64,000 bases of DNA. It comes from Crossaster papposus (lineage: Eukaryota; Echinodermata; Asteroidea; Velatida; Solasteridae). The stretch lies in the NCBI GenBank assembly GCA_037893245.1, contig JBAIAA010000510.1, positions 62,001 to 126,000 of the forward strand, read 5' to 3'. The first letter of the stretch is position 1; every line of letters starts with the position of its first letter. Made by a program: the position numbers and the translations under genes. The notes below the pieces were generated by a model that did no database searches, was not told the origin of the DNA, and saw nothing but the letters and a program-made list of their open reading frames with translations. This document shows, piece by piece, positions 3,025 through 35,585 of the stretch.

Positions 3025-3855
3025 ATGAAGATCTTGGTGACAACCGTTCTTTCAATCGCCCTCCTTCTGGGTAACTCTGTCAAGCTCCGAGCTTCTGTCA
3101 CTGGGCCGGTTGCCTCGGACAGTGATGTTCCAGCGTCTCGGGCGTGTCCGATGTGCTGCCAGGGACCTTCTGCCACAAATGGTATACCAGGTTTACCTGG
3201 TCAGGTCGGACCCTACGGCCAGCCGGGGTCAAAGGGCGACGCAGGTCAGCCGGGTCAGAATGGCGATATCGGGCCGATCGGTCCAATGGGTGAGCGGGGA
3301 GCACTTGGGAACGCTGGGCCTAAAGGTGACGATGGGATAGGCCAGCCAGGCAAGATAGGTCCGAAAGGTCTGCAGGGTGTAGTCGGAAGTCCTGGTCAGA
3401 CTGGTGTCAAAGGTCAGAAGGGTGAGCCAGGGGAGACACCAGACGACTCCAACCAGCGGGTAGCATTCACCGCGGTGAGGACGAGCTCCTCTGATACCTC
3501 TACGAGTCACGACACCCGTTTGCCTTTCCAGCAGACCGAGACGCTTCTGCCGGGTACCAGCTTTGATCTCGGGACCGGCACGTTCACGTGTACTGTGCCG
3601 GGCACCTACGTGTTTACATTTTCTGTGAACAAATATCCTCGCAGCAGCCAACTGGGCGTTCATCTCCGGAAGAACGACGACTATGTTGTCACTGGCTTTA
3701 GCACTGATGCAAGTCACTATGAGCAGGTGTCTGGGAGCGCGGTGCTGGTTCTGCAGCGAGGAGACACGGTGGGGCTTACCATGTACGGTAGGGTGCATAG
3801 TGATTCCAACTATAACTACACCTCATTCAGTGGCTTCCTCCTTTACCCCGAATAA
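3025..3855 (+). CDS. Secreted collagen-like C1q-domain protein, copy 1
   Basis: A 276-residue protein, intact in a single coding exon. I start at 3025, because the residues from there (MKILVTTVLSIALLLG) form a classic signal peptide, cleaved near 22-23. An upstream in-frame ATG at 2998 would bury it. A CPMCC cluster (Cys41, 44, 45) probably makes interchain disulfides. Residues 53-138 are Gly-X-Y repeats with one two-residue interruption near 104. Residues about 143-276 are a C1q/TNF-like jelly roll ending FSGFLLYPE. Proteins of this design form trimers and act as soluble pattern-recognition or complement-like lectins; that role is inferred from the family. An acceptor 'tatacag' lies just before the ATG, consistent with upstream 5' UTR exons. 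AATAAA sits at the stop codon and again at 3898. A paralogue lies at 34755. Confidence 0.92.
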   Translation: MKILVTTVLSIALLLGNSVKLRASVTGPVASDSDVPASRACPMCCQGPSATNGIPGLPGQVGPYGQPGSKGDAGQPGQNGDIGPIGPMGERGALGNAGPKGDDGIGQPGKIGPKGLQGVVGSPGQTGVKGQKGEPGETPDDSNQRVAFTAVRTSSSDTSTSHDTRLPFQQTETLLPGTSFDLGTGTFTCTVPGTYVFTFSVNKYPRSSQLGVHLRKNDDYVVTGFSTDASHYEQVSGSAVLVLQRGDTVGLTMYGRVHSDSNYNYTSFSGFLLYPE

Positions 3856-4179
3856 ATAATGAATAATTGCTGAAACAGTAGTCGTATAAAAAGGGATAAT
3901 AAAATGTCATAATAATTAATATTTGTTTAGCGTCTTACAATTGGGTTTTTAAAACACATTACAAACAGACATAAAAACTACATGAAAAACAATTAATCAA
4001 AAGTAATATTTTTATAGAACTTGTTTTAAGTTGCGTGTTTTTTTTTATTCCACACTCGATTTTTGTCGCAATAACTGAAGTACATTTGGTGTTTAATTCT
4101 AGACTGTTTCAATACGATTTAATGCAGTTAATTAGTTGTACAATGTACTATCGATGTACTAATAAATATCTTACTTATT
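3856..4179 (+). other. 3' flank of C1q-like gene 1
   Basis: AT-rich sequence with an AATAAA signal at 3898-3903, probably the 3' UTR and polyadenylation region. It matches D2 35586-35930, where that second AATAAA is altered. No further gene is seen. Confidence 0.4.
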
Positions 4180-4478
4180 TGAAAGAAAATAATGATTCTA
4201 GGCATCCAGAAAAATAATTACGGTAGATATCGTGTAATTGTTTGCGAAAAAATTTAATTTGTACAAACAAATTCACAATCGCCCGCTGGCGAATGCGAAA
4301 AAAAAACTAAGAATAACTGCCCGACATCGGTTGAAAAAGAATGCAGTTTTTCTTGCTTTTCTCGGCATCCAATCCATGATTGTAAAACTTCGAACAGGTC
4401 AGTTAAACGATATTTACTATAAAATACAACCCCTCCAAATCCACCCATTCATGATAATTTAAGCAATGCATCCTACCT
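4180..4478 (-). mobile_element. Truncated TTAA-type MITE, minus orientation
   Basis: It ends 'gcatcctacct' followed by ttaa (4479-4482), matching the terminal repeat of the full MITE at 7530-7872. The internal sequence, read on the minus strand, follows the same family. The opposite terminus is not recognisable. Copies in D2 lie near 35930-36216 and 38730-39018, so it was in place before the duplication. Confidence 0.6.
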
Positions 4479-4830
4479 TTAAATGTCCGCTGTACTACTA
4501 CTGGCATTTAAACATATCGTTACTGAATAAACATATTTACCCATTTTATGTTGTTTCAAACGTATTTTATACTCGTTTCAATATTCATTTTTAATAAAAT
4601 GTTTATATACTTTAAAGCTCAGTGTGGCTTAACTCGAGGTCCAAGGTTCAAACCCAGCTAGAGTCGATGAATAAATACAAAATTGAATTTTGTGCTTCAA
4701 TTGCTAATTTTTAAGCATTTAATAGCATCTGTATGAATAACAAATTAAGGTAGAATATTAGCATTTGCTCCATTTGGTATGAATTAAAAGAAGTAAATGC
4801 TTCAGATTTGCAGTGCTTACTCCATTTTTT
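4479..4830. other. Non-coding sequence downstream of the oxidoreductase pseudogene
   Basis: AT-rich sequence shared with D2 (36217-36597 and its tandem copy). It has 'aggtccaaggttcaaaccc' near 4640, a weak box-B-like word on the minus strand. No gene is seen. Confidence 0.4.
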
Positions 4831-5129
4831 TTAAGATTGGGTCGGGGCTAACATAATAGACTCTATTGTTATAAACCATTCGGCTGTGCAATTAACTGCA
4901 AGTATAAAGCACTTCACTCTAAACGTCTCTCTCGGCATGTCATAGTCCCACTTTCCCTTCAGTATCATGTTAGCTGCTATGTGGCCGATCTCATCTGAGG
5001 ACTTGGCCCCGACCCCGTTACCGCCAACGAGCACGCCGAGCCCAGGGTCGACCATGTCGCAGTAGAGTAGCCGCGTAGGTGTGGTGGTAGTCACGCAAGT
5101 ATTGGTGTGAATGGAAAGTGGCTTCAGAT
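4831..5129 (-). pseudogene. Oxidoreductase terminal exon, D1
   Basis: The acceptor 'ttaccgttgcag' ends at 5130. The exon encodes DLKPLSIHTDTCVTTTTPTR and the C-terminal FAD-binding GGNGVGAKSSDEIGHIAA. In both D2 copies the protein ends KRKPKTERV. Here a deletion of roughly 80 bases replaces that tail with an unrelated run of about 27 residues to the stop at 4831. Confidence 0.75.
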
Positions 5130-5483
5130 CTGCAACGGTAATAACAAGTGTTGCATCTTTTTTAATTTAATATTCAGAGGCAATCACGGCAACTTGATGA
5201 AAGGGCGACAAAAACATAGGACGAACATTTTTGAATGGATGCTTCGTTCCATTTCAATAGTCTGCCACTTCACTGGATATACTTGTACTAATTTGTGATT
5301 GACTTTTGTTTTATCTCACCGTTATATACAATATATACAGTTGTGTGCTATAAATTACACCTATGACACGTCAATGTGTTTTGTAAAAACTTGCAGGACG
5401 TGTCGCAGCTGCGAAGCATCGTAGGGATACGACGCGCAATGCATCATAAAATTAATTGCTGGTCACATCTAGATTTCCTAAAT

Positions 5484-5820
5484 GGGGTGCTATGGCCTCG
5501 TGGTCTGGAGCATTGAATTTGTGGTCTGCGGGTAAATCTGCAGGTTGTGGGTTCGAGTCCAGCCTGGGGTTGTTGTCACTCATTGCTTCTCTCCACCCTG
5601 GAGTAAAATGGGTACCTGTGATGGCAGAGATGGTTTCTGGGATTGATTTATTGCTGCCTTGCGGCGAAATGGCTGCATCGAGCTGTATACTGACCAGGGA
5701 GCCGAGTTGGTATTTGAAATGTTTCGTGGGCCCAATGAGCAGGGGTAATAATATTAATAGTGACACAAGCGGCAGTATTGTTGGATACGAGCGCTTTATA
5801 AATATTATTATTGTTATCTA
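5484..5820 (+). mobile_element. tRNA-derived SINE, D1 intron copy
   Basis: The head reads 'gtgctatggcctcgtggtc' (box A region) and 'gggttcgagtcc' (box B), followed by a tRNA-unrelated body and an AT-rich 'tataaatattattattg' tail. It sits in the intron before the terminal oxidoreductase exon. Five orthologous or tandem copies are in D2. Small open frames across it are incidental. Confidence 0.8.
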
Positions 5821-5873
5821 TACTGTAGTTTTTACACAGTAATAAGATCGATGGAGTCCAACGGATCACCTAC

Positions 5874-6017
5874 CAGGAATTATGCCTTGTAGGCACTGCA
5901 GGGGTCTATCTGACGTTGGTTGATCACCATGACCAAAGTACCAGGCCTTCATTTGCTTCTTAGTTGTCAAATCTTTCTCACCCACTTTATCGTGACCTAT
6001 TTTCAGGTACCACTTAC
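5874..6017 (-). pseudogene. Oxidoreductase penultimate exon, D1
   Basis: A 144-base exon with acceptor 'ttttgtag' and donor CCTG/GTAGGT. It encodes KWYLKIGHDKVGEKD through CLQGIIP, the KIG.H region of DAO enzymes. Five near-identical copies exist in D2. The reading frame here is open. Confidence 0.75.
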
Positions 6018-6289
6018 CTACAAAACATATGGGGAAAGAAACAAAATTTAGCTACATGTCTTCAATAGGAATAGTATGGCGTTTTCATTGGGACTAACAA
6101 ATGTTCATCTGACTCCAAGCACAAGTTCTCCTCTTGCTCGGTTGCAGCAAGTGAGTTAGGGGAGACTTGGGTTTGAGTCACCAAACATTGAGTCTAAGTC
6201 AGAATTAGAGTCCCAGTCACCACTGTCGAGTCTTGAGAGAGAGTCCTGAATTAAACAGGTAGAGTCCAAGTCGTAAGTCAAATGGTCTG

Positions 6290-6505
6290 GGCAGTGTACA
6301 GCTCGATGCTGCCATTTCGGCGCAAAGCAGCTAAATCAATCACAATGACCATCTCTGCCCTCACAGGTACCCATTTACGCCTGGGTGGGGAGAAGCAATG
6401 AGGCACACGCACAACCCCAGATTGGACTTGAACCCACAACCTGCAGAATTACCAGCAGACCACGAATTCAATGCTCCTGGCCACGAGGCCACTCCACAGC
6501 CCTAA
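6290..6505 (-). mobile_element. SINE of the same family, reversed
   Basis: The reverse complement reads 'gtggcctcgtggccagg', 'gggttcaagtcc' and the same body as the copy at 5484. Its tail is missing at the 6290 side, where the deletion that removed the middle oxidoreductase exon also ends. The D2 counterpart is at 47015-47237. Confidence 0.75.
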
Positions 6506-6972
6506 ATAAGTGGTCTTCTACAATTGAAAACTCTGATATGATTTTTCAGATGACCAACATTTTTGAGAAAAATTGACGACAAAAACAACACAGTCCTACC
6601 TATTCCTCTGTATTTGTGTAGTAGGGAAAATGTCGAAATACTCACTTTTCTCAATTCCAAAAACTTTGTTTAAACTCAAATTTTGATTCTGGGCTTCTCA
6701 AGAGTTCCTCTTCATTTAAAAAAAGATAATTCTAACTCCATTTTTCCTTATCCCTAACTCCCTAGGGTGTGTGCAAAATCATATTGATTTTGGAGGATTT
6801 GGGAGGGTTAGGACTAAAGATCTTGCAAAAATGGCAAAACGGACTTTGGGCGTGCGCAAGTCTACAATCCATAACCTCTTCCCGCATCCCGTAGACGTCA
6901 ATGGTTCACAGGTTCACAGTACGCGTGAAATATCCGCACATGCATTCACACGTGCGTGCATTTCTCTCTTAC
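6506..6972. other. Oxidoreductase intron sequence, D1
   Basis: Shared with D2 (47238-47608). No gene or extra exon was recognised; intervening exons expected for the enzyme are not seen. Confidence 0.4.
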
Positions 6973-7108
6973 CTGTCATTCGTTTGATATCACTGAACCT
7001 TTGAGCTGCTCGTCTGCCAAGTTCTCCCGATTCAAAACTTCTGCTGATTCCACTAAATACTCGTCCCTCATCATAATGGGCACCGAATACAGACCGGCTT
7101 TCATAATT
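6973..7108 (-). pseudogene. Oxidoreductase exon 2, D1
   Basis: The acceptor 'ttttttaag' ends at 7109 and the donor CAG/GTAAGAG begins at 6972 (minus strand). The exon encodes YESRSVFGAHYDEGR then a segment ending RFSDIKRMTG. This is the conserved region after the Rossmann motif in sarcosine-oxidase-like proteins. One base seems to be missing at its start relative to exon 1 phase. In D2 only about 45 bases of its 5' edge survive near 47610-47648. Confidence 0.7.
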
Positions 7109-7529
7109 CTTAAAAAAACAGAAAATATAATTGAAATTATTCTTCCAGTGTTCCAGTGTTGTAATACTAGCACTCGCACCAAATTATGTAAACATAATAA
7201 TGACCCGATAAACTCCCTGTGAAATTATTTCTCTGGCATGCTGTCATTTTGAAGAATTTTGAAGTAGTCTAAAGATGTGTCCCAGAGATGCATTTTTTGA
7301 AATTTCCATCAAGCAGTTGGTTCCATATCAAAATCTAAGAATATTATTTTATTGGAATAAATATCATTCACAGAACTAAACCTTCGTCAGGTTAGTTGTC
7401 AAACACTTTTCTTTAGATTTTTGAGAACTTTTGCTGCTTTCAAACAATACAAATGTACAACTGACAATAAGTAAAACATTTTGGATGTCTTAGATATATT
7501 TGAACAATGTGCCCTTCAAAAGATTTTAA

Positions 7530-7872
7530 AGGTAGGATACACCATCAGTAATTGCTGGAATTATCAAGAATGGGTAAATTTTGGAGGGTTGTATTTTATG
7601 GTAAACATTGTTCAACTGACTTGTCCGGAGTTTTACAATCGTGGATGCTGAGAAAAGCAAGAAAAACAATACTCGTTTTCAACCGGCGTCAGGCAGTAGT
7701 TCTTATATTGTTCCTGTGTTTATATAATTCAATTTTTCAGAACAATTAAAGAATATCTAGCACAATCTATTTGCTGGATGCCTACAATCATTATTTACCT
7801 ACAAATAAGTGGGATATTTCCTAATAATTCGGTAGTAAAATGTTGCGATATCGCAAATGGTGTATCCTACCT
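7530..7872. mobile_element. Complete MITE with TTAA target duplication
   Basis: A 343-bp element with perfect 16-bp terminal inverted repeats AGGTAGGATACACCAT, flanked by TTAA at 7526-7529 and 7873-7876. TTAA duplication with these ends suggests a Kolobok- or piggyBac-type non-autonomous element. It lies in the oxidoreductase intron, 31 bases from the exon 1 donor. Relatives are at 4180, 35930, 38730 and inside the foldback at 57622. Confidence 0.8.
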
Positions 7873-7903
7873 TTAAATCCCGAGTGGGAAACAAAAATCA
7901 TAC

Positions 7904-8035
7904 CTCTTCGTGACTGGTTTGCTGGGTCCGATAAGGCAAACCAAGATACCAGGCCACTCAGCAATATTTGGCGGCTGCACTGCCCCACAAACCTGCCCCG
8001 ACGACACAAACGTCAAATACCTCGGTTGCAGACAT
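7904..8035 (-). pseudogene. Oxidoreductase exon 1 (FAD-binding N terminus), D1
   Basis: The start codon is at 8035 (minus) and the donor at 7904 (AAGAG/GTATGA). Residues MSATEVFDVCVVGAGLWGSA give beta-alpha-beta with GxGxxG. An extra T after the AAATAT codon pair shifts the frame. Downstream in the shifted frame the sequence again reads family-like, WPGILVCLIGPSKPVTKR. D2 has no counterpart of this exon. Confidence 0.75.
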
Positions 8036-16460: not shown

Positions 16461-16462
16461 GT

Positions 16463-19303: not shown

Positions 19304-20135
19304 TGTTGTGAATCGCCAGCGACAGAGGGCGCCACCGCGCGTTCGCGTTGCTATGCCAGCGGCTGCAGCACGTCTGTTCGCATTGCTAAGGGCGCGGCCA
19401 TCACAGTAAACATGGAGCCAAAAGGATGGGCCTGGTTACGGACGGTAGGCAACGCTTTTACCACTTTGCCCTGTGTATTTTGATCAAAGCCTTTAACCTT
19501 CTTATTCAAGTAATGATTTGGGTGTTTGTTATCCATGTTAATGTTATTAAATGGTTATCTTTTAATGTTCTCGTATTTCCAGAACGATCCATATGCGGAT
19601 CCATAAGACAAGTGGATTCATATGCAGATCCATAAAGTGGATAATATGCAGATACATCGATCCGTGTCGTCCGCCAGATGTATTCATTAGGGACTTTTCG
19701 ATTTGCACGTTTACTAGTAGACTGCGACGTATGCGGTCATTTGTGAAGCAGTGCGCATGCGCATCGACGAACTCGTCGTTCGTAGCAGAATTCTCGAACG
19801 CGTTCAACCTTGTTTTGCCGTCGTTGGAAAACTGTGACGACGTATACATAGCGCGCGCCAAACATAAGGCATGACGTCACTGAGTGAGCGTAGTCGTAGT
19901 CGTAGAAATCGAAAAGGTAAGGTACAACATTTAGCGTGCCGCATACGTCGCAGTCTACTTGTGACCGCATACGTCGCAGTCTACTAGTAAACGTGCAAAT
20001 CGAAAAGTCCCTATTCTCTGTGTTTGTAACTTATGGGTTGGAATAAACAGCAAAGACAGTGCTCTCACACTGCACGTAAACAACAGACCGTGTATGATTG
20101 GTCCAGTCTCTGAGTCTGGTTCCCTTCTCACAACA
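19304..20135 (+). repeat. 5' LTR of the BEL/Pao element (with MITE)
   Basis: Identical in layout to the 505-bp 3' LTR once the 324-bp MITE and its ATT duplication are set aside. It begins TGTTGTGAATCGCC and ends TTCTCACAACA. Confidence 0.93.
19689..20012. mobile_element. MITE inserted in the 5' LTR
   Basis: A 324-bp element with long terminal inverted repeats beginning AGGGACTTTTCGATTTGCAC and flanked by ATT on both sides (19686-19688, 20013-20015). The right end has a local duplication of 'ccgcatacgtcgcagtctac'. It is missing from the 3' LTR, so it landed after the retroelement. The superfamily is uncertain; 3-bp duplication fits PIF/Harbinger-like or Zator-like elements. Confidence 0.85.
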
Positions 20136-20138
20136 TTT

Positions 20139-22558
20139 TGGTGACCCCTGGTGACCACTGGCCTTTGCAGCAACTTCTGTAGTATAGGCAGCTGCTCCCC
20201 TTTGCCGGCGATCCCTGTTGGTTGAGTGGGTTTCTGTCTTTAAACTCTCACTGAGCTGCACTTTCTTCCTGGCTATAGCTGCTGTCTCTTGCAACCACCC
20301 GTTGATATCGATCAAGGAGAAGTTGTTGACATTCTTGGCCTTCATAGCCCTCAGAAAGGCTGTCTGATGCGGATGGGACAATCGACCGTACAGGACGCAT
20401 GCAGTGGAGTTCGCCTTCAGTTCTGCCTGCCCTTCCGACGAGTTCAGGAGTTGAGTCATGGTAACACGGATGGGGTCGCCTCCTCCAAAGGTAGGGATTT
20501 CCATGTTTATTCCCCCTGCTGATGCAGCCAACATCGAGCTCAGCATCATCTCGTTTGAGGTCGCTGGAGATACCAAGGGTCGACCAGTGAGGTCTCCCAA
20601 TGCTGCAGGTTCGCACGGCGAGGGAGAGGTCGAAGGCATCTGTGGAACAGACCTGTTACCTGAGGGACTGGAAAGTAAAGGTGGAGGGAAGTTTAAAGCG
20701 GAAGTGGGGTTTAGGTTCAACCCAGACACAAAGGATGAAGAATGGTCCCAAGGGTTGGGATTGCCATCCTGAGAAAGAGCAAAACTTGGCTGGGAAGCCA
20801 TTCTGCCTAAAGGAGTGTTGCCCGGAATAGTGGGCACAGACCACGCAGATGGTGCGTGGGTAAAAACAGGTTGCGCGTGGATTGCGCCGGATGAGGCAAT
20901 GCTCGCGACGGCGTGCGCGGGCATCGCGGAGTGCGAGGAACTCGCGTGGGTTGGCGCGTGGATCGCGCCGGATAAGGCAAAGCTCGCGAAGGCGTGCGCG
21001 GGCATCGCGGAGTGCGAGGAACTCGCGTAGGTTGGCGCGTGGATCGCGCCGGATGAGGCAATGCTTGCGACGGCGTGCGCGGGCATCGCGGAGTGCGAGG
21101 AACTCGCGTAGGTTGGCGCGTGGATCGCGCCGGATGAGGCAATGCTTGCGACGGCGTGCGCGGGCATCGCGGAGTGCGAGGAACTCGCGTAGGTTGGCGC
21201 GTGGATCGCGCCGGATGAGGCAATCCTCGCACTCCGCGATGCCCACGCACGCCGTCGCGAGCATTGCCTCATCCGGCGCGATCCACGCGCCAACCTACGC
21301 GAGTTCCTCGCACTCCGCGATGCCCGCGCACGCCGTCGCAAGCATTGCCTCATCCGGCGCGATCCACGCGCCAACCTACGCGAGTTCCTCGCACTCCGCG
21401 ATGCCCGCGCACGCCTTCGCGAGCTTTGCCTTATCCGGCGCGATCCACGCGCCAACCCACGCGAGTTCCTCGCACTCCGCGATGCCCGCGCACGCCGTCG
21501 CGAGCATTGCCTCATCCGGCGCAATCCACGCGCAACCTGTTTTTACCCACGCACCATCTGCGTGGTCTGTGCCCACTATTCCGGGCAACACTCCTTTAGG
21601 CAGAATGGCTTCCCAGCCAAGTTTTGCTCTTTCTCAGGATGGCAATCCCAACCCTTGGGACCATTCTTCATCCTTTGTGTCTGGGTTGAACCTAAACCCC
21701 ACTTCCGCTTTAAACTTCCCTCCACCTTTACTTTCCAGTCCCTCAGGTAACAGGTCTGTTCCACAGATGCCTTCGACCTCTCCCTCGCCGTGCGAACCTG
21801 CAGCATTGGGAGACCTCACTGGTCGACCCTTGGTATCTCCAGCGACCTCAAACGAGATGATGCTGAGCTCGATGTTGGCTGCATCAGCAGGGGGAATAAA
21901 CATGGAAATCCCTACCTTTGGAGGAGGCGACCCATCCGAGTTCCGCTGCTTTGAAGCGATGGTAGACGGTTGCATCAAGCCCCTGATCCACCTAAGTGAG
22001 GTGCAGAAGTATTTTGTGGTCAGATCGAAGCTTAGTGGTCAACCTAAGAAAGACATACTTGGACTCGAGCATGATGCTAGTCCCTTCACCAAGGCCATGT
22101 CTACTCTCAGTGAGTTGTATGGCGATGTTGGCGTTTTGATACGTTCCAAGATTGAGCAGATCACCTCGTGGCCGAGAATGACGGCCAGTGACTCTAAGGG
22201 ACTGGTTGAGTTTGCAGCTGCAGTGTCAGCCCTAGTGACTCAACTCCTGAACTCGTCGGAAGGGCAGGCAGAACTGAAGGCGAACTCCACTGCATGCGTC
22301 CTGTACGGTCGATTGTCCCATCCGCATCAGACAGCCTTTCTGAGGGCTATGAAGGCCAAGAATGTCAACAACTTCTCCTTGATCGATATCAACGGGTGGT
22401 TGCAAGAGACAGCAGCTATAGCCAGGAAGAAAGTGCAGCTCAGTGAGAGTTTAAAGACAGAAACCCACTCAACCAACAGGGATCGCCGGCAAAGGGGAGC
22501 AGCTGCCTATACTACAGAAGTTGCTGCAAAGGCCAGTGGTCACCAGAAGGGGTCACCA
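20139..22558. repeat. Giant inverted duplication of the gag region
   Basis: Left arm 20139-21224 is the reverse complement of right arm 21265-22558, around a centre of about 40 bases. The arms match closely from 'tggtgacccc' outward to the centre. They differ by one internal segment of about 290 bases present only on the right and by one extra 81-bp repeat unit on the left. Long frames on the minus strand of the left arm are therefore mirror images of gag and not separate genes. Confidence 0.9.
20870..21540. repeat. 81-bp tandem repeats in mirror orientation
   Basis: GC-rich units ('ttggcgcgtggatcgcgcc') recur at 20951, 21032, 21113 and 21194. Reversed units follow from 21225 to about 21540. 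In gag frame each unit is 27 residues of Ala/Ser/His-rich sequence (HSAMPAHAVASIASSGAIHA). Confidence 0.85.
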
Positions 22559-22684
22559 GCCCCTTGGGTTGTGCGCAAAGATAAGAAGATTTTCAAGAAG
22601 AGTTGCCCCCACTGCCGGGGGGAACACTGGCTCTCTCAGTGTGAGAAGTTCCGCGACCTGACGACGGGACAGCAGATGAGCTAG
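21265..22684 (+). CDS. Gag region of the BEL/Pao element (part of fossil)
   Basis: Ala/Ser/Pro-rich repeats lead into a conserved gag block (SEFRCFEAMVDGCI...) and end with a zinc-knuckle-like CPHCRGEHWLSQCEKF. Gag coats the RNA and forms the particle. Its true N terminus is not present, because the inverted duplication takes its place. Confidence 0.75.
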
Positions 22685-22777
22685 ATTAAGGTAGAGAAAA
22701 GATGCTGGCAGTGTGCGCGCCTCCACAAGGATGGGAAGGGATGCGACCTGCGCAAACCGTGTCGCCGTTGCGACAAG

Positions 22778-25700
22778 TTGCACCTGACTGTTCTCCATGG
22801 CCTTGTTGAGCAGCCAGGATATGGGGTGTACTACTCATCCTTTGACCCAAACCTGTCTGTCTTTTATGGGAATGGAAACCCGTGGCTCCCCAATGATGTC
22901 AGCATGAAGATCGTTCCAGTAATACTTTATGGCAACGGTAACCGGCTAGAGACGTATTGCTTGTTGGATGATGCAGCCAACTTTTCCATGATGCTTAGCG
23001 AAGCCACGGAGGCCCTGGGCCTCGGGGGAAAAAGCATCCAGATGCCGATTGCGACAGCCAGAGAGGAATGTGCTCCATGTAATGGTGTAATTGTCTCGGT
23101 TGACCTCGCGCCAGCACATGATCCAGTTTCATGCGTCACAATTTCCAATGTGTTCTCGTCTTCCATGCTGAGGCTGTCTGAGCACTCCGTTCCAGCCAAG
23201 GACCTACAAAGGAGATGGCCACATTTGCGAGATATCCCGTTACCAGATTTCAAGAGGGTACGCCCGCTATTGTTGATAGGCAGTGATCGTCCTGATCTGA
23301 TTGTACCCATCGAGAGTCACTTTGGCCCCGAAGGAGCACCAGTTGCTGTACGCACCAAGCTTGGGTGGGCAGTTCAGGGCCCCATTCTGAAGTCCAGGTG
23401 TCGTGGTGAGGTAAACTACCTGTCCGTCCTATCCAGTGGTGAGACTGACCGAGTGCTACACGAAAATGTATGTAAGCTGTGGCAAAATGACGCTCAAATG
23501 TATGCAGAGCGGAAACAGGTCATCCGATCCAAGCAGGATCAGCGAGCAGTCGATCTACTTGAGGCAAAATCCGCCTATGTAAAAGTGGATGGCATTGAAC
23601 GAGTTGCAACCCCACTCCTGTGGAGACGTGACAACGGGATACTTACCTGTCCAGCCAGCGCAGTGATGGGCCCTCTAAAACGAAATGAGCAACGTGTCCA
23701 AAAAGACCCAACGCTTGCCGCAGAACACTGCAAGAAGATCAGGGACCTAAAGGATGCTGGGCTTGTTCGTGTGCTCACGGCGGAAGATAACGCGGCGGAC
23801 TCCGGGCGCCACTGGTACATACCCCATCATGTAGTTCGGAGCAGTGAAAAATACAGATTGGTGTTCAACTGTGCATTTCAGTACCGCGGAGAGTCTCTCA
23901 ACAACCACCTACTACCGGGGCCCAACCTAGGCTCATCGTTGGTCGGAGTACTACTGAGGTTCCGGAAACATCAAGTTGCCATCTCTGGTGACATCAAGGC
24001 GATGTTTCACTGTGTGCGCACTTTGGAGTGTGACCGTTGTATGCTCAGGTTTTTATGGAAAGAGATGGGCCCCGATTCCCAGTTGGAGGAACTGGAGTGG
24101 AATGTACTTCCCTTCGGCACCACCTGCAGCCCCTGCTGCGCCACCTTCGCCCTGCAGAAGTATGTGAAAGACAGTTTTCCAAATTCAGACCTGGTCAGAA
24201 GTGTAACAGAGGCGTTTTATGTTGATAACTGCTTGGATGGCAAGTCGACAGTCTCAGAAGCTAGAGAGCTGGTCCAGAAGCTCCGTCAGGCATTAGACGC
24301 CGGTGGATTTCCCATTGTAAAGTGGGCCAGCAACTTCCCAGAAGTGGTGACTGACCTGCCCCAAGAAGCTCGTTCCTGCAGCACCGAGAGGTGGCTCACT
24401 TCCAGCTGTGATTCCCCGGAGGAGGCTGCTTTAGGGCCCCACTGGAATTTCCAACGTGATACGCTCAGCTATAAGCTTCAACTTCGTGAGTGGCCAGTAC
24501 TCACTCGGAGAGCTGTCCTAAGTGATGTTATGCGGTGCGCGGGAAAGGACCCCCTCGGATACCTCATGCCATACATGGTGAGAGGGAAGATGCTCGTACA
24601 AGAACTTTGGAAGCGACCCTGGGGCTGGGATGAGGAGATACCAGATGAGGGCGAGGGTAGTTTATGTACCCAACACAGGAAGTGGCGTGAAGAGATCCAC
24701 GATATCTCCCTTGTGCACCTACCTCGGTGCTACCTTCCACCGTACCTTGAACCGGAAAAGGTGGCCTATCAGCTGCATGTATTCACAGATGCCTCCGAGA
24801 AGGCCTATGGGGCTGTGGCCTACCTCCGAACCATTGCTCAGTCAAAAGAAGTTTGCATCAGGTTTGTGATGGCACGTTCCAGATTAGCCCCGAAACGCGT
24901 GCAGACCATTCCTCGATTGGAACTCCAGGCGGCCGTTTGTGGCGCTGAACTAGCCGAACTTCTTGAAGATGAGATGAGAATGAAGTTTTCTATCACCTGC
25001 TGGAGTGACAGCACTACCGTTCTAAGCTGGATTACTTCAGAGTCCTGCCGCTACAACCGTTTCATTGGTGCTCGAATTGCTGAGATTCAGAGGCTAACAG
25101 ACCACACTATCTGGCGGTATGTGGATACGGCCCAAAACCCGGCTGATGACCTGACGCGTGGATTACTGCTGAAGGAGCTGACTGCAGAGAGTCGGTGGTA
25201 CGCTCCACCATTCCTCTTTGGTCCTGAAAAGGATTGGCCCAAGTTCCCATCGCACATGCAGCAGGATAGGAATGAAGTTGAGTTGAAAGCCAGTTGTTTC
25301 ACTGCCTTTACTATTAATCGTCCAGAAGATGTTCCAGAGATTGATGTGACAAAATACGACTACTGGGATGCCCTGGTAGAGGCGTATGGGCGCACTATCT
25401 GCGAATCAAAAGATGAACCCAAGCCGGAGTTTCTCAGTGCCAACCAACGGATGGAGGCTGAACAGGCCCTTTGCAGAAAAGTTCAGGTCGACAGCTTCCC
25501 AGAAGATCTCGCAGCTCTAACAGCTGGCAATCCTGTTTCACAAAATAGCCGTCTGGCCAAGCTGGCTCCAGAGCTGGATGCTGATACCCAATTGATCCGA
25601 GTTGGAGGGAGACTCAGACAAGCGGAGTTGGATATGAATGTGAAACACCCCGTTGTTCTTGACTCCAAACACCAGATAGTCCAGCTGCTGATCAAAGATG

Positions 25701-26839
25701 TGGATGAACGTCTTGGACACCCTGGGACTGGTACGGTATTTGCCGATATGCGACGACGCTTTTGGTTGTTGCGAGGACGCCAGTCCATCCGAAGTCTCCA
25801 GAGCAGGTGCACAGGCTGCCTAAGACAGCGTGGGCAACCTTCAGTGCCCAGAATGGCAGATCTACCTCCTGCCCGACTGCGAATTGGTCGGCCACCCTTC
25901 TATTCCACTGGGGTAGACTGTTTTGGCCCCTACACAGTTACCATTGGACGGCGGAATGAGCAGAGGTGGGGGATCATATGGAAGTGCATGACGACTCGGG
26001 CCGTCTACCTCGACTTGCTTGAGTCTCTTGATGCCGATGCCTTCCTCCTGGCTTTTAGTCGCTTCCGCTCCCGGCGTGGCACACCTCATGAAGTATTGTG
26101 CGACAATGGGACCAACTTCAAGGGAGGTCTTACTGAATTGACAAAGGCATTCAAGGAGATGGAACCTAACCTTCAGGAGAAGCTTGCCAAACACAAAGTT
26201 CATTTCAGGTTCAACCCTCCCGCTGCACCGCACTTTGGCGGGACGTGGGAGAGGGAGATTCGGTCGGTAAAGACTGCATTGTATGCTATTCTTGGTAACC
26301 GATCAGTAGCTTCGCCAGTCCTCTATACTTGTCTAGTGGAGGTAGAAGCCTTGCTGAATTCCAAACCATTGTCTTATGTGTCCTCAGACATTGCTGATCC
26401 AGACCCCATCACGCCCTTCATGTTACTCATGGGGCGGCCGGACCACTCTCCACCACAGGTTGTCTACCCGGATCGCGATGTGCTTAGCCGCCGTCGCTGG
26501 CGCCAGTGCCAAGCCCTTATGCAAAGATTCTGGAAGGAGTTTGTTCAGTCGTATCTGTCAGCAATGCAGGCTCGCCAGAAGTGGTGCAGCGAGACCAGCA
26601 ACCTACGTGTCGGCGATGTAGTTCTGATGGTGGACCCACGACAACGACGTGCATCCTGGCCTCTGGCGAAGGTCACTGAGGTTCTTCCTGGTGCGGATCA
26701 GCGGGTTCGCGCGGTGAAGGTGCAGGTCGGAGATCGCACCTACACTCGACCAGTGGCACGCCTAATTCGACTGCCTTCTGAAAGCGCCATTGCAGGCAAT
26801 CCTGAAGCTGCCACTCTGCCTGAGTCCGACCCCACTTAG
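22778..26839 (+). CDS. Pol region of the BEL/Pao element (part of fossil)
   Basis: A frame of about 1350 residues. Near residues 50-90 is the BEL-type aspartic protease (LLDDAANFSMM). The reverse transcriptase lies around residues 300-560 with the palm motif FYVDNCLDG. The Pao-type peptidase-like linker and RNase H-like region (HVFTDASEKAYGAVAY) follow. The integrase begins near 900 with the zinc-binding part, then CDNGTNFKGG in the catalytic core, and the DUF5641-like tail ends RPVARLIRLP. Together these copy the RNA into DNA and insert it. Confidence 0.88.
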   Translation: MHLTVLHGLVEQPGYGVYYSSFDPNLSVFYGNGNPWLPNDVSMKIVPVILYGNGNRLETYCLLDDAANFSMMLSEATEALGLGGKSIQMPIATAREECAPCNGVIVSVDLAPAHDPVSCVTISNVFSSSMLRLSEHSVPAKDLQRRWPHLRDIPLPDFKRVRPLLLIGSDRPDLIVPIESHFGPEGAPVAVRTKLGWAVQGPILKSRCRGEVNYLSVLSSGETDRVLHENVCKLWQNDAQMYAERKQVIRSKQDQRAVDLLEAKSAYVKVDGIERVATPLLWRRDNGILTCPASAVMGPLKRNEQRVQKDPTLAAEHCKKIRDLKDAGLVRVLTAEDNAADSGRHWYIPHHVVRSSEKYRLVFNCAFQYRGESLNNHLLPGPNLGSSLVGVLLRFRKHQVAISGDIKAMFHCVRTLECDRCMLRFLWKEMGPDSQLEELEWNVLPFGTTCSPCCATFALQKYVKDSFPNSDLVRSVTEAFYVDNCLDGKSTVSEARELVQKLRQALDAGGFPIVKWASNFPEVVTDLPQEARSCSTERWLTSSCDSPEEAALGPHWNFQRDTLSYKLQLREWPVLTRRAVLSDVMRCAGKDPLGYLMPYMVRGKMLVQELWKRPWGWDEEIPDEGEGSLCTQHRKWREEIHDISLVHLPRCYLPPYLEPEKVAYQLHVFTDASEKAYGAVAYLRTIAQSKEVCIRFVMARSRLAPKRVQTIPRLELQAAVCGAELAELLEDEMRMKFSITCWSDSTTVLSWITSESCRYNRFIGARIAEIQRLTDHTIWRYVDTAQNPADDLTRGLLLKELTAESRWYAPPFLFGPEKDWPKFPSHMQQDRNEVELKASCFTAFTINRPEDVPEIDVTKYDYWDALVEAYGRTICESKDEPKPEFLSANQRMEAEQALCRKVQVDSFPEDLAALTAGNPVSQNSRLAKLAPELDADTQLIRVGGRLRQAELDMNVKHPVVLDSKHQIVQLLIKDVDERLGHPGTGTVFADMRRRFWLLRGRQSIRSLQSRCTGCLRQRGQPSVPRMADLPPARLRIGRPPFYSTGVDCFGPYTVTIGRRNEQRWGIIWKCMTTRAVYLDLLESLDADAFLLAFSRFRSRRGTPHEVLCDNGTNFKGGLTELTKAFKEMEPNLQEKLAKHKVHFRFNPPAAPHFGGTWEREIRSVKTALYAILGNRSVASPVLYTCLVEVEALLNSKPLSYVSSDIADPDPITPFMLLMGRPDHSPPQVVYPDRDVLSRRRWRQCQALMQRFWKEFVQSYLSAMQARQKWCSETSNLRVGDVVLMVDPRQRRASWPLAKVTEVLPGADQRVRAVKVQVGDRTYTRPVARLIRLPSESAIAGNPEAATLPESDPT

Positions 26840-27040
26840 ACATCTTGTCTTGTTACCACCAGCCGCACCCCATGGTTCTACATGGGGCGGCCGTATACTG
26901 TTAAACTTGTTGTTTCAAGTACCTTAAACTGTTAGTGTTCTTTTGTGTTCAACCTATTGTTGTTGCTCTTTGCGGCCTGTGGCCATCCCTATGCCAATTC
27001 ATGTTAATGTAAACTATTCTGCACAGTTTAGGGGCGGCTA

Positions 27041-27545
27041 TGTTGTGAATCGCCAGCGACAGAGGGCGCCACCGCGCGTTCGCGTTGCTATGCCAGCGGC
27101 TGCAGCACGTCTGTTCGCATTGCTAAGGGCGCGGCCATCACAGTAAACATGGAGCCAAAAGGATGGGCCTGGTTACGGACGGTAGGCAACGCTTTTACCA
27201 CTTTGCCCTGTGTATTTTGATCAAAGCCTTTAACCTTCTTATTCAAGTAATGATTTGGGTGTTTGTTATCCATGTTAATGTTATTAAATGGTTATCTTTT
27301 AATGTTCTCGTATTTCCAGAACGATCCATATGCGGATCCATAAGACAAGTGGAAACATATGCAGATCCATAAAGTGGATAATATGCAGATACATCGATCC
27401 GTGTCGTCCGCCAGATGTATTCATTCTCTGTGTTTGTAACTTATGGGTTGGAATAAACAGCAAAGACAGTGCTCTCACACTGCACGTAAACAACAGACCG
27501 TGTATGATTGGTCCAGTCTCTGAGTCTGGTTCCCTTCTCACAACA
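27041..27545 (+). repeat. 3' LTR of the BEL/Pao element
   Basis: A 505-bp repeat matching 19304-20135 without the MITE. It is followed directly by the ATGAT target duplication. Confidence 0.93.
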
Positions 27546-29570: not shown

Positions 29571-29592
29571 ACCCCCCCCCCCCCCCCTCCCC

Positions 29593-29624
<32 letters not shown>
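29571..29624. repeat. Poly-C tract
   Basis: More than 50 bases almost entirely C, broken by two T positions. Its length is likely unstable and error-prone in assembly. Confidence 0.9.
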
Positions 29625-29625
<1 letters not shown>

Positions 29626-30084: not shown

Positions 30085-30155
30085 GCTGGATTCGAACCAG
30101 AGACCTTTCGATCCATAGCCCATCTCTCTACCAACTAGGCTATCAGCGAGTTAGT
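30085..30155 (-). repeat. tRNA-derived SINE head, D2
   Basis: The minus strand shows 'tagcctagttggtagagag' (box A) and 'ggttcgaatcc' (box B), with 'gggctatggatcgaaaggtc' between. It resembles a tRNA but lacks a matching acceptor stem, so I call it a SINE remnant and not a gene. Confidence 0.6.
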
Positions 30156-30380
30156 TAAGGACAGGGTTTCTTTAGAGTTTTTTTTAAATAATAGATGATC
30201 AGTTGCCATTGTTCTTTTCATAATTATACGTTTACGCACCCAGCTGCCGAAGAAAAAAATGCGAACCGCTACACGTTTACACGTGGTCTAAGTTCAATTA
30301 TTGCCTTTTCGCCATGCAAACCTTTGAATCTCATCTGTCTTCCTTTCATTGGTCAGTTGTGAGTGTCAATCACGAAGCAC

Positions 30381-30845
30381 GCGTTTGAACGTGTCATCGA
30401 CGTCTATAAAACGTCAACTAATAAGATGTGTTCATTTCACACAGTGTCGGTGACTGAAAGTCACATAAACATAACTCCCGTTTCATGAATATTAAACGAG
30501 TCAGTGGTGCGTGATTGACAGCGTACTATATAAGGGCCACGCTTTTGAACGTGTCACCGACATCTATAATACGTGCACCAATAAGATGTGTTCATTTCAC
30601 AATGTCGGTGACTAAAAGTTGCATTTACATAACTCCCGTTCATAAATTTTAAACGAGTCAGTGGTGCGTGATTGACAGCGCACTAGGGGACACGCGTTTG
30701 AACATGTCATCGACGTCTATAAAATGTCCACTAATAAGATGTGTTCATTTCACAGTGTCGGTGACTGCAACTACATTAACATAACTCCCGTTCATGAATA
30801 TTAAACGAGTCAGTGGTGTGTAATTGACAGCGCACTAGGGGCCAA
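30381..30845 (+). promoter_or_regulatory. Three tandem promoter-like repeats upstream of C1q-like gene 2
   Basis: Units start at 30381, 30541 and 30693, one more than in D1. TATAAAA is kept in the first and third (30405-30411 and 30718-30724), while the middle has 'tataata'. All keep 'aataagatgtgttcatttcac' and 'gagtcagtggtg'. The function is inferred. Confidence 0.5.
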
Positions 30846-30904
30846 TCAGAAACCGGGCAACGTTCCTCAGTCACTGCTTAGGAAATCATTGGCAAGTTTT
30901 TAAG

Positions 30905-31004
30905 GCAGGAGCGCGCGCTTCATTCCTCACAACGACCGCAACTTATCTTCGCCTTCGACAGGACAGCCAGAGAGAGACCTGAACGCAAGAACGAGATTTA
31001 CAAG
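30905..31004 (+). other. Putative 5' UTR exon 1 of C1q-like gene 2
   Basis: Matches D1 1340-1442 and ends at an optimal donor, CAAG/GTAAGG (intron from 31005). The start is approximate. Confidence 0.45.
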
Positions 31005-31497
31005 GTAAGGTTCTATGACAGATGGCTTTTCAAGTCTTGAGGTGTAATGTTTGTATTCCTTCTTGATTAGTGGTTCTTACAAAAGTATGTTTTAAACAAA
31101 ACTCGTGAATAGAGTAGGTTGTGTCAGAGTATATTAAACTCTCTGCTCCGCTGTCCACGTAAATGGTTGTTAAAGGCTGTTCACGTACTTAGGGTCCCAT
31201 ATACATGTATACCCTTGGTACTGTGCTTAATGTTCAAGCTGTTCCACCATTCTTCTGACATGCTTTAATGAGCACAAACAGCCTACCCCAGCATCCTACC
31301 AAGCATCTGTTACTGTTAGCATCCTGTCAAAATCTGCCGCGTATCCTATTCCAGAATGGCATACCTCAATGGTCCACTGAACTCAGCACCATCCACAACC
31401 CATATGGTGTTACCGCAAACCTCCCATCCTATTGATTTTTCCACCATGCAAACTCTTAAGTCTTATTTAAAACGGTAGGGGCAAAAGTCGAACGTAC

Positions 31498-33742
31498 CAG
31501 TCAGTCCGCAGCGCACTGAAAAGCCGTTCCTTTTATGTGCGATTTATGCATGGCACTTTGTGCGTGACCTCGTTTTTGAATACCTAATGAGCTGGCGACA
31601 ACGCCTGAAAATTGGTCCGAAACATCCGTTTTATTTACCGACTGTCAATATTATGTATATTTTCTTTTGGATAAGGAAACATTTTGTTATATTATCAAAT
31701 CAGATTGGAAATTATATGACATTTAGAGGGTGAAATTTATAACGTAAAAAAAAGCTCCCGAACCAACAAATTGACCTTTAAAAAAAGACGAATTTTGTCC
31801 ATCTTCTGGCAGCGGCCACAACCCAATTTCACACTGATGTTAAAGATAATTTCATATTCTATCACAAAACTGTAGATTTGGGGTTGATTTTAACTTAGTC
31901 CAGTCAGGGCGCAGACAATTATAACGTTCTCAATAAATTAACAAATTAGGGTTGGTAATGAGATAATAAATGTTTAGCAATTAAGCAAAACATTAACAAA
32001 AATATGGCCAACATTAAAATTAAAATAATGACAACATAGTGAAGATGATAATTACCATCATCTTTGGCATAATGTTCAATGTGCAAACCATTGAGATTTA
32101 TTATAAAAGTAAATAAAGTTTGTTTTATCTTTGCTTGATGTTTTTGTCATAGTTTCTTTGGCATTTAATTTTTGTAAATATTAACTTACAATGTATACCC
32201 GCTTCTAACATTGCAAAAACAAATGATTTTAAATAAGACATAAATTTAGTAATATAGATGTTAATGCACATAAATTATATCACTAAATAGAAATAATACA
32301 TTCTGCATTCATAAAGTAATATGCTGTTTGTGTCAAATTTACATTGTAGCTCAAAACTTTGTTGGCATAGTTTTTGGCATTAAGTCCTAGATGATTTTAC
32401 AAACTGACCCGACTCGACCAGACTCGGTTTCGATCTCAGTGTTTCAGTTGCACTGTGTTTGCACAACACTGACACAAAGTCATGTATATTATTTAAAACA
32501 CTAAAATACCAAAACATTTAAATCTACATGTACAAAGCACGTGCTGCATATATCCACCAGTACATTTAAATCTTCAACTATTTTCAACACTTCTTTGGAA
32601 ACCCAACTCTAGATCATTTGTCCCAACATGAATCATTACAAATACAATATGTCAGGCACAGTTGTGAGGTTGATGTCATGCTGATGAAGCAGACACTTTC
32701 TAAGGCCAGAAATTGTAGTACCGCGACCTGCAAATCAACCAATTTTAGTAGTGATGTTCTCTTTGAGATACTTTGTGAGAGAATATCCAAGGACAAGAGC
32801 TTTGCCTTTGGCCTTCTGTAGAGGTTCCCGACATGCTGACCGTGGCTGCGATGGCTGCGGTGGGCATGGCGGTGGGCATGGCGATGGGCATGGCCATGGT
32901 GGTAGACGGCATGACTACTACCTAGTATAAGAAACATATTGGAAGACAGAAATATGAACTATGAAGTTTAGCACAATAATAGCAGTAACTATTATTATTA
33001 AACAATTTGTGAATTTTGAACAAAAACATAGGCCTAAGTCGTTTTTATACATGAAAGAAAAATCTATTTTCTATCAATGCATGACATAAAGGCAGAAACC
33101 TAACTTGATCATATAAATAAGCCACACAAAACAAAACAATTAATTATGTTTCTGTTGGCTACTGTACAAAACTACAATCACCATCTAGTGCCTATCCAGC
33201 ACATCATGTACACATGCTTGCTTGTGTGCATAATGAAACACACGCTCTGCGCGCGTATGTACAAGCCGAAAGACAAAACATGGACGAAAAAGTTGAAATC
33301 GCGCGCACGAAAATCGTCGCAAAATACATGAAAAAAATGTCGCCACAGGCTAAATTGTATATCAAACGAAAGATCATTGCTTCCTTTATTGATGTGTAGA
33401 GATCATTGTTGGCAATATTTGTTAGTCCAGTCAGGGCGCAGAAACTAAACACACGACAAAAAATTTCCTTAAAATCATACCCTAACTTCGAGTGAACAAA
33501 ATTCTGCCAAAAACGTACTGAATCGTCATATTTTATATCATTCGATTCAGAAAATCGTTCGCTTTCCACTTACCCCGCCATCTTGGAGAATCACTGCTTC
33601 GTTTGCAACGTGTAGCTCGTGAAAACAAAGCGGTCGAACTCTCGCAATTACTCGCGTAAATCTCGTGGCCGATTTGCGACGCCGGCCCTGCAAATAAAGT
33701 TCGGGATATGACCTCATTAACGCGTGCGCTGCGGACTGACTG
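31498..33742. mobile_element. 2.2-kb TIR transposon in C1q intron 1 (D2 only)
   Basis: Perfect 19-bp terminal inverted repeats CAGTCAGTCCGCAGCGCAC, with TAC on both sides (31495-31497, 33743-33745) and a clean empty site in D1 near 1930. The minus strand near 32610-32840 retains a decayed SGNH-hydrolase-like stretch (SLTKYLKE, GRGTTISGL, HVGTNDLELG). A plus frame at 33214-33399 ends KYMKKMSPQAKLYIKRKI, like a BESS-type tail. No transposase is visible. The 3-bp duplication and the BESS-like tail hint at PIF/Harbinger, without proof. Confidence 0.75.
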
Positions 33743-33869
33743 TACTATATTCCTTCTTTGCATCCACGGACTCGTCTTGTTTCCCCCCATTTTGTCACCA
33801 TCTTTGTTACAACAAATGACTTAAAGTGTTGTGATCAAAGATCACTTGTTTTTTTTGTATTATTTTTAG

Positions 33870-33930
33870 GTGACATTCAACATCAGTCAGTAAGATTTCT
33901 ACTTCGGCTGAGCTCTGACTAAGAACACTA
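33870..33930 (+). other. Putative 5' UTR exon 2 of C1q-like gene 2, donor lost
   Basis: The acceptor 'tatttttag' and about 60 exon bases match D1 2044-2104. A deletion of roughly 130 bases then removes the donor (CAAG/GTAGGC in D1). The exon may be skipped, extended to a cryptic donor, or retained. Confidence 0.4.
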
Positions 33931-34754
33931 CTAAATATTACCGTATTTACATAGTTTTTCATTCAGTATATTATATCTTCCCCAGTTATTTTAACACTTG
34001 CCTTACACATTCTTATAACGACACTTTACTTTCGGTCTCCTAACATCGCTTAGCTCATTTCTCAATAAAAAAAAATAGTTAGCAATGAATTCTATTCGAG
34101 ATCAAGTATTATTGCAATTTGTATACCGTTATGATTCCTCCTAAAATCGTAAAATTCGTTTTACGGGGCGTTCGAAATTGAATAAAAAACAAACAAATTT
34201 GGGTGTTTTTTGTTGTTTGTTTTAACACTCTTGGTTATTTAAATAAAACAATTAACCATAATGTTTGATAGTAAACAGAATAAAATGCAATGACAACAGC
34301 GTATATATCTATTAAAATAAAACAAATTAAAAATACCCAAAACCACACATTAATTTATGACGAATCGCAATGCTCTAATTAAAATTATACTGCAACTTTA
34401 ATACAAATCCCTTTGCAATTTTTGAAATTGAGAATCAAGAATTGAGCTCGACGATGTTTGCGGACGAAATTAAAGCGCAGTTACAATTAATTTCTGGAGA
34501 AAATAAGGTGGGGTTCGCCCTACTTTATAGCTTGATTCAAAACCCGTACGAAACTCTCCCTCAAAAAAGTTGTTCTGTCAAATTTTGTTTTGCCGCTTCA
34601 AAAAAAAAAACGACCAAAACGAACATCTCAAGTTATTTTGTATGCGCTCTACCCAAGAACCTTTCAATTAATTATTTATGTTTTTTGCTTCTTTTTTTCG
34701 TTTAATAAAATTAGTCCCTTTTGTGATTTATATTGTCTACTTTGGGTATTTAGA

Positions 34755-35585
34755 ATGAAGATCTTGGTGACAACCGTTCTTTCAATCGCCCTCCTTCTGG
34801 GTAACTCTGTCAAGCTCCGAGCTTTCGTCACTGGGCCGGTTGCCTCGGACGGTGATGTTCCAGCGTCTCAGGCGTGTCCGATGTGCTGCCAGGGACCTGC
34901 TGCCACACATGGTATACCAGGTTTACCTGGTCAGGTCGGACCCTACGGCCAGCCGGGGTCAAAGGGCGACGCAGGTCAGCCGGGTCAGAATGGCGATATC
35001 GGGCCCATCGGTCCAATGGGTGAGCGGGGAGCACTTGGGAACGCTGGGCCTAAAGGTGACAGTGGGATAGGCCAGCCCGGCAAGATAGGTCCGAAAGGTC
35101 TGCAGGGTGTAGTCGGAAGTCCTGGTCAGACTGGTGTCAAAGGTCAGAAGGGTGAGCCAGGGGAGACACCAGACGACTCCAACCAGCGGGTAGCATTCAC
35201 CGCGGTGAGGACGAGCCCCTCTGATACCTCTACGAGTCAAGACACCCGTTTGCCCTTCCAGCAGACCGAGACGCTTCTGCCGGGTACCAGCTTTGATCTC
35301 GGGACCGGCACGTTCACGTGTACTGTGCCGGGCACCTACGTGTTTACGTTTTCTGTGAACAAATATCCTCGCAGCAGCTACCTGTACGTTCATCTCCGGA
35401 AGAACGACGACTATGTTGTCTCTGGCTATAGCACTGATTCAAGTCACCGTGAGCAGGTGTCTGGGAGCGCGGTGCTGGTTCTGCAGCGAGGAGACACGGT
35501 GGGGCTTACCATGTACGGTAGGGTGTTTAGTGAATCCACCGCTCACTACACCTCATTCAGTGGCTTCCTCCTTTACTCCGAATAA
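34755..35585 (+). CDS. Secreted collagen-like C1q-domain protein, copy 2
   Basis: A 276-residue protein, the same length as copy 1 and with the same signal peptide. It keeps the CPMCC cluster, Gly-X-Y stretch (residues 53-138) and C1q head to FSGFLLYSE. I start at 34755 rather than at the upstream in-frame ATG at 34590, which would add 55 unrelated residues before the signal peptide. The acceptor-like 'gggtatttag' directly precedes the coding exon. Relative to copy 1, the collagen part changes little. The head changes at residues 209, 211, 223, 225, 229 and 232, and at 258, 260 and 262-264. The role is inferred as soluble recognition, with ligand preference possibly different from copy 1. AATAAA overlaps the stop region. 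Confidence 0.92.
   Translation: MKILVTTVLSIALLLGNSVKLRAFVTGPVASDGDVPASQACPMCCQGPAATHGIPGLPGQVGPYGQPGSKGDAGQPGQNGDIGPIGPMGERGALGNAGPKGDSGIGQPGKIGPKGLQGVVGSPGQTGVKGQKGEPGETPDDSNQRVAFTAVRTSPSDTSTSQDTRLPFQQTETLLPGTSFDLGTGTFTCTVPGTYVFTFSVNKYPRSSYLYVHLRKNDDYVVSGYSTDSSHREQVSGSAVLVLQRGDTVGLTMYGRVFSESTAHYTSFSGFLLYSE

Follow-up and report, generated by a model that had tools for sequence, protein, structure and literature searches.

Two genes in a 64,000-nucleotide stretch of the genome of the sea star Crossaster papposus (contig JBAIAA010000510.1, positions 62,001 to 126,000; the whole stretch is called the window, and positions without a contig name are counted within it) raise the question of why a recognition protein should collect amino acid replacements in two short patches of its C1q head. 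An initial annotation had read this as a likely sign of diversifying selection, or of conversion from another paralog, on a surface that faces the ligand. The two genes, A and B, are members of a family with about 500 copies in this one sea star genome. Copies share almost the same rod and head framework, and some 15 to 23 head positions vary almost regardless of how alike the copies are overall. From the sequences of these copies we consider it quite probable that the family is a germline repertoire of about 500 collagen-stalked C1q recognition proteins, which selection has diversified and exchange between copies has shuffled.

Genes A and B

Genes A and B are of equal length and have one open frame each. 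The features used in the comparison are given below; pN/pS denotes the ratio of replacement to silent change.

3025-3855, plus strand: gene A, collagen-C1q protein of 276 amino acids, the coding part being one open reading frame (codon comparison, Pfam)
34755-35585, plus strand: gene B, paralog of A, 276 amino acids, 92.8% identical protein (codon comparison, Pfam)
3181-3432, plus strand: gene A collagen rod, residues 53-136 (Pfam and triplet count, the triplets counted in gene B)
34911-35162, plus strand: gene B collagen rod, residues 53-136 (Pfam, triplet count)
3439-3852, plus strand: gene A C1q head, residues 139-276 (Pfam, homology)
35169-35582, plus strand: gene B C1q head (Pfam, homology, model)
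3649-3720, plus strand: gene A patch 1, residues 209-232, with the start of strand D, strand E and the EF loop (codon comparison, pN/pS)
3796-3816, plus strand: gene A patch 2, residues 258-264, within the variable stretch 254-265 (codon comparison)
35379-35450, plus strand: gene B patch 1, residues 209-232 (codon comparison)
35526-35546, plus strand: gene B patch 2, residues 258-264 (codon comparison)
2228-4846, plus strand: duplicated segment with gene A inside it, belonging to a repeat unit about 30 kb long (self-comparison, 92.5%)
33933-36596, plus strand: duplicated segment around gene B, matching 2228-4846

The C1q domain scored above the Pfam cut-off of 23.7 bits in both genes (80.4 and 84.2 bits), and the collagen domain PF01391 reached 50.9 bits in A and in B, above its cut-off of 27.2. 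The E-values for gene A were 1.8e-22 for C1q and 1.3e-13 for Collagen. The Gly-X-Y rod precedes the head and in gene B comprises 18 unbroken triplets from residue 53, followed by an interruption and further triplets.

The two coding regions differ in 24 codons by 31 bases, with 20 replacement and 4 silent codons. Within residues 209-232 and 258-264, codon comparison agreed exactly with the initial annotation: 11 codons differ by 16 bases and none of the changes is silent. The few silent changes lie outside the patches as described, at codons 84 and 108 in the rod and at 167 and 198, and the rod, which had been called nearly unchanged, carries a single replacement (codon 103) besides its two silent changes. 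The eleven replacements in the patches are Q209Y, G211Y, T223S, F225Y, A229S and Y232R in patch 1 and H258F, D260E, N262T, Y263A and N264H in patch 2; those at residues 24, 33, 39, 49, 52, 155, 162 and 275 had gone unlisted. The differences are clustered, with 16 of the 31 falling within 93 of the 831 bases (p=3e-8), although the windows had been picked from this same pair. The lack of silent changes was not significant in the pair by itself (11 replacement and 0 silent codons in the patches against 9 and 4 elsewhere, Fisher p=0.098), so that A and B alone left the matter of selection unsettled.

A and B are the sole copies of the family inside the window. The segments around them (2228-4846 and 33933-36596) are 92.5% identical and the flanks were duplicated along with the genes, which therefore look like segmental duplicates rather than retrocopies.

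Replacement, silent change and exchange among the copies

The genome (1.02 Gb in 1841 contigs) was searched with two conserved 33-mers, one from the rod and one from the head, allowing up to 3 mismatches. This located 507 rod sites and 521 head sites, totals in which broken copies and some haplotigs are counted too, and reversed controls gave 0. A search with protein A yielded at least 140 full-length, stop-free matches at 91% identity or above, and on contigs as long as 6 Mb many family matches point the same way. The Pfam C1q profile returned 584 candidates in the genome; all 150 of the 150 scored exceeded the cut-off, other C1q subfamilies among them. A second, similar set of collagen-C1q genes with a different head, perhaps another expanded subfamily, was seen on contigs C28, C830, C474 and C278 (L002, L003, L004, L006 and L007). 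On contig C114 (94373-96543) three head 33-mer sites fall within 2.2 kb, possibly marking head-only copies beside a full gene.

From the family 109 further copies were taken (L010-L118; L009 is gene A), 69 through similarity to A and 40 through an exact match to the rod 33-mer. The frame was intact within the fetched stretch in 95 of them (69/69 similarity-picked and 26/40 pattern-sampled). Three copies were dropped before counting: L086, whose head is interrupted without a stop, and L040 and L066, which are nearly identical haplotigs of L039 and L065. This left 92 copies and, together with A and B, a counting set of 94. All 94 heads were distinct once the two haplotigs had been removed. The pairwise comparison of variable codons dropped L086 only and used 96 copies in 4560 pairs.

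When the windows 209-232 and 258-264 were applied to the 92 copies, which had played no role in choosing them, pN/pS was 5.45 (bootstrap 3.99-8.75) in patch 1 and 3.20 (2.10-5.70) in patch 2, while the rod gave 0.39 (0.33-0.45) and the N-terminal part 0.98 (0.77-1.26). Replacement and silent steps stood at 130:17 in the patches versus 159:75 over the remaining head (p=4e-6) and 69:49 along the rod (p=3e-8). The diversifying selection read from A and B is thus also indicated by 92 other copies, and recurrent selection of this kind for new binding specificities is well supported as the candidate force behind replacement at the variable positions.

Amino acid heterozygosity exceeded 0.5 at 15 head positions among the 94 copies (155, 162, 206, 209, 211, 223, 225, 227, 232, 254, 257, 258, 260, 264 and 265). 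By the same threshold there were 18 positions in the 25 pattern-sampled copies and 15 in the 69 others, with 13 in common. The patches do not bound the variation, as 155, 162, 202-206, 254, 257 and 265 fall outside them. Mean nucleotide diversity at the first, second and third codon positions was 0.48, 0.42 and 0.12 at the 15 sites, whereas head framework codons had 0.015, 0.012 and 0.026. Across the 94 copies pN/pS was 5.90 for the 15 most variable codons and 0.38 for the head framework, classes that were picked from the same data on which they are measured. The 15 sites are rich in tyrosine (21.5%) and histidine (14.9%), with 0.0% lysine and no methionine; the framework has 1.9% tyrosine, 0.9% histidine and 1.0% lysine.

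Variation at these sites was nearly independent of the likeness of the copies elsewhere. Between copies separated by 1-15 silent framework differences, an average of 12.2-14.5 of the 27 variable codons differed, with a weak upward trend (4560 pairs, rho 0.12), and on average 12 to 13 of 27 differed even where there were only 1-3 such differences. The 8 pairs with zero silent framework differences had clearly fewer (7.1). Association between variable sites was 0.14 at 3-12 bases and 0.07 at 12-30 bases, compared with 0.37 and 0.33 for framework sites, whose pairs were few (14 and 24), with many from codons 49-59 and partly reflecting one subfamily marker. At 1-2 bases the two classes were alike (0.30 for variable and 0.31 for framework sites). 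The weak association and the independence from framework likeness together suggest that independent replacement may have recurred beyond what shuffling supplies.

Across the stretch 206-232 there were 93 haplotypes in 94 copies. The stretch 254-265 had 81, of which 9 were common to 2-4 copies that differ in 206-232. Sharing of patch sequences as blocks, by which conversion was to be recognized, was accordingly seen for part of patch 2 and not for patch 1. Exchange does occur by two other signs, the flanks and the pairwise homoplasy index (PHI) test of recombination, but blocks from a donor do not account for the haplotypes of 206-232. With windows 3 and 6 the PHI test returned p=0.0005, and restricted to non-patch sites it returned 0.001. 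Distances in the upstream and downstream flanks were almost unrelated (rho 0.067, 2334/2346 pairs), pointing to separate histories, and the correlation of upstream-flank with coding distances was 0.27. Copies differed on average by 6.5% in the upstream flank, by 8.8% in the downstream flank and by 4.0% in the coding region. These results support a part for exchange, which would reassort variants between copies and, we infer, help to keep the framework alike.

Two possible sources of the pattern were tried and rejected. Nearness in an array was hardly a predictor of similarity among the 26 copies on contig C130 (325 pairs; rho 0.10 for flank, -0.01 for framework and 0.11 for variable codons, the last with p=0.05), and a surplus pool of head-only donors is not apparent, since head and rod sites are about equal in number. 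Allele-like pairs on contigs C992 and C1407 (99.86% and 99.93% identical) had 0 differences at variable codons, which speaks weakly against rapid ongoing change.

The variable surface and the competing explanations

The variable positions were placed on the strands and loops of the C1q head. Further features of gene A that bear on this placement are the following.

3025-3093, plus strand: N-terminus, hydrophobic, putative signal peptide, residues 1-23 (by eye)
3145-3159, plus strand: cysteines 41, 44 and 45 ahead of the rod (cysteine in 92, 93 and 94 of 94 copies)
3487-3510, plus strand: AA' loop stretch running from residue 155 to residue 162, both of them hypervariable, and lying outside both patches (diversity by position)
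3628-3648, plus strand: variable CD loop, residues 202-208 (diversity by position)
3784-3819, plus strand: variable residues 254-265, covering the last part of strand G plus the GH loop (diversity, pN/pS)

Heterozygosity above 0.25 was found in the loops AA' (155, 162), CD (202, 205, 206), EF (227, 229, 231, 232) and GH (258, 260-265), and in strands D (209, 211), E (220, 223, 225) and G (254, 257). It was absent from strands A, F and H, from the stretch 165-190 and from the BC, DE and FG turns. The limits of these elements come from the strands of a predicted model together with homology and lie 1-2 residues off the model, in which residue 202 is the last of strand C; strand H was placed via homology alone. 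Among the 50 best fold matches listed for the head model all were C1q-family heads, with a template modeling (TM) score of about 0.5. In C1q heads both chain ends exit on the stalk side, which would put the AA', CD, EF and GH loops at the opposite end, so that the variable surface is probably turned outward from the stalk.

The product is probably secreted, and cysteines 41, 44 and 45 are presumed to form inter-chain links. The chains would trimerize via head and rod, and the N-terminal cysteines may join trimers into larger bouquets. The variable apical surface would then bind differing microbial or other foreign surfaces, and the bound molecules could act as opsonins or lectins. A separate observation concerns the start of the CD loop, where cysteine replaces Asn202 in 16 of 94 copies (including L029, L039 and L044), a possible extra disulfide.

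If conversion alone were responsible, the patches would be ready-made blocks copied among paralogs and selection would be unimportant. The 9 shared haplotypes of 254-265 fit this, as do the strong association of residues 262-264 (z 19.8) and the reticulate histories of the flanks. Yet nearly every copy has its own 206-232 sequence, variable sites at 3-12 and 12-30 bases are less associated than the (few) framework pairs, and no surplus of heads over rods was found; copied blocks should moreover carry silent changes, whereas pS in patch 1 is 0.026. We give conversion alone a slim chance. Relaxed constraint, by which the loops merely tolerate change, is hardly credible. Loops do vary in many beta proteins, and a good share of the copies may be broken, but this explanation predicts pN/pS near 1, well under the lower bounds for the patches (3.99 and 2.10), and the sets of residues at variable sites are restricted. 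Two further candidates were rejected. Old balanced alleles should bring linked silent diversity, but framework pS is not raised near the variable codons (0.023 for codons 209-265 vs 0.043 elsewhere, the lower value not being significant at p=0.062). Generic hypermutation is unlikely because silent change at variable codons is merely about doubled, far too little to match the 0.4-0.5 diversity of the first and second codon bases.

A programmed process might instead mutate selected codons at their first and second bases and spare the third, as prokaryotic diversity-generating retroelements do. Codon 211 occurs as 12 different codons, every one ending in C. At 14 variable codons the third base is a pyrimidine in 1215 of 1296 cases, the minor pyrimidine making up 21 of the 1215 (1.7%), and minor C/T third bases number 57/6078 (0.9%) in the head framework and 36/3729 (1.0%) in the rod. 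At 155, 209, 211, 225, 232, 258 and 260 the association between first and second bases is weak (0.14-0.36), though it is not so at other codons such as 162 (0.71). Against this reading, the sets of bases are specific to the site, as selection predicts: the second base is never G at 155 and never C at 209, and the first base of codon 223 is nearly always A or T. The two allele-like pairs, without a difference at variable codons, point the same way, with little power because the members of each are about 0.1% apart. Such a process is not needed to explain the pattern, and we think it very improbable. That an active process alters the first two bases of selected codons and outpaces selection on ordinary mutation, within a germline repertoire of about 500 copies whose scaffold is kept by exchange, likewise seems a slim prospect. 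The variable head might also serve gamete or self recognition or another non-defense role, which we regard as improbable. Positive selection is reported on the sea star sperm-egg locus bindin (PMC3605852) and some invertebrate C1q proteins are said to act in shell, byssus or attraction (PMC10672478), but bivalve C1q is described as microbe-recognizing and lectin-like (PMC6835236), and hundreds of differing copies in a single genome would be more in keeping with a repertoire than with a mating type. Selection combined with exchange is more likely than conversion alone, than relaxed constraint and than a reproductive role.

Several points weigh against selection combined with exchange. Fourteen of the 40 pattern-sampled copies were not intact in the fetched stretch, although two of these (L089 and L115) are open to its edge and may just start beyond it, and 69 of the 94 copies counted were A, B or picks by similarity to A. 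An excess of replacement over silent change among the paralogs (dN/dS above 1), which the initial annotation expected to be confined to surface loops, appeared in the patches when run as counting on the 92 copies, but the rest of the head also exceeded 1 (pN/pS 1.23, 1.04-1.44) because further variable positions sit there. Counting took the place of codon likelihood models, since recombination makes a single tree unsafe. Silent change at the variable codons is about twice the background (pS 0.069 over the 15 codons vs 0.033 in the head framework), and the PHI test was not significant at window 12 (p=0.08). The single-chain head model is weak (mean predicted local distance difference test (pLDDT) score 55.8, strand H unformed), and the apical placement of the variable loops draws on homology and fold topology.

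Surroundings of the genes and relation to known systems

A long terminal repeat (LTR) retroelement lies between A and B at 19304-27425. Its 385-base ends are 99.5% identical, and its insertion was therefore probably recent; from its long frame we take it to be BEL/Pao-like. Inside it is a perfect inverted repeat (20473-21933) with 710-base arms 41 bases apart, either real or an assembly fault. Downstream of gene B, at 35737-41342 and 41950-46349, are a 2.8-kb tandem duplication (99.8%) and 1.6-kb repeats. By eye, frames at 60638-63540 look like those of reverse transcriptase and recombinase, perhaps from a DIRS-like element. Elsewhere in the assembly, contig C8 (L119; >5 Mb) carries COX1-like frames that are stop-free in the standard code, possibly from an associated bacterium. 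The mitochondrial contig C1841 agrees with a sea star source. Its COX1 scores higher under the echinoderm genetic code (924.6 bits) than under the invertebrate one (889.8 bits). An ND4L frame, identified by eye, sits between COX1 and COX2, and a reversed ND1 frame is found upstream; COX1 is preceded by tRNAs for Leu(taa), Tyr and Leu(tag), all reversed, and by a forward tRNA for Gln, an arrangement that matches the inverted block of sea star mitochondria.

To our knowledge invertebrates are without antibodies, and the finding bears on how much recognition diversity their germline carries. With a near-fixed scaffold and discrete hypervariable loop positions, the family of about 500 copies amounts to a natural binding library, in which ligands could be compared against the differing residues. 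The family also offers a clean case of selection holding diversity at single codons while exchange acts on the rest of a multigene family. No such C1q family was found among the papers listed in literature searches, judged by titles and abstract openings, most subscription papers and all bioRxiv preprints lying outside the search.

The closest comparison is with the C1q domain-containing (C1qDC) proteins of the oyster Crassostrea virginica, likewise a large, tandemly duplicated C1q family with selected head sites. In that study six clusters of 15-26 genes were tested, 4-11 positively selected head sites per cluster were found, more commonly C-terminally, with most other sites under negative selection, and no collagen-bearing C1q was found (PMC6835236). 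The sea star family differs in having about 500 copies of one collagen-bearing type, which is coded in a single open reading frame and has a near-constant framework and some 15-23 variable positions. As far as could be seen, its scale, its collagenous type and the tight confinement of its variation are new relative to selection on oyster C1q. The order of a Gly-X-Y rod and then a C1q head is shared with human C1q and with the collagen-bearing C1q already known in Echinodermata, but the part of that account available to us describes no hypervariable repertoire like the present one (PMC11312191).

The sea star genes also resemble the SpTransformer (Sp185/333) genes of sea urchins, another highly variable echinoderm multigene family, which has been tied to the immune response (PMC11089230). 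They are unlike that family in their C1q fold and in point replacement at fixed positions of the framework. Variation in SpTransformer takes the form of mosaics of elements. The variable lymphocyte receptors (VLRs) of lampreys and antibodies combine a constant framework with a variable binding surface whose variable sites are rich in tyrosine. A constant framework and a tyrosine-rich variable surface recur in the sea star C1q copies, but unlike that of VLRs and antibodies the variation described here lies between germline copies.

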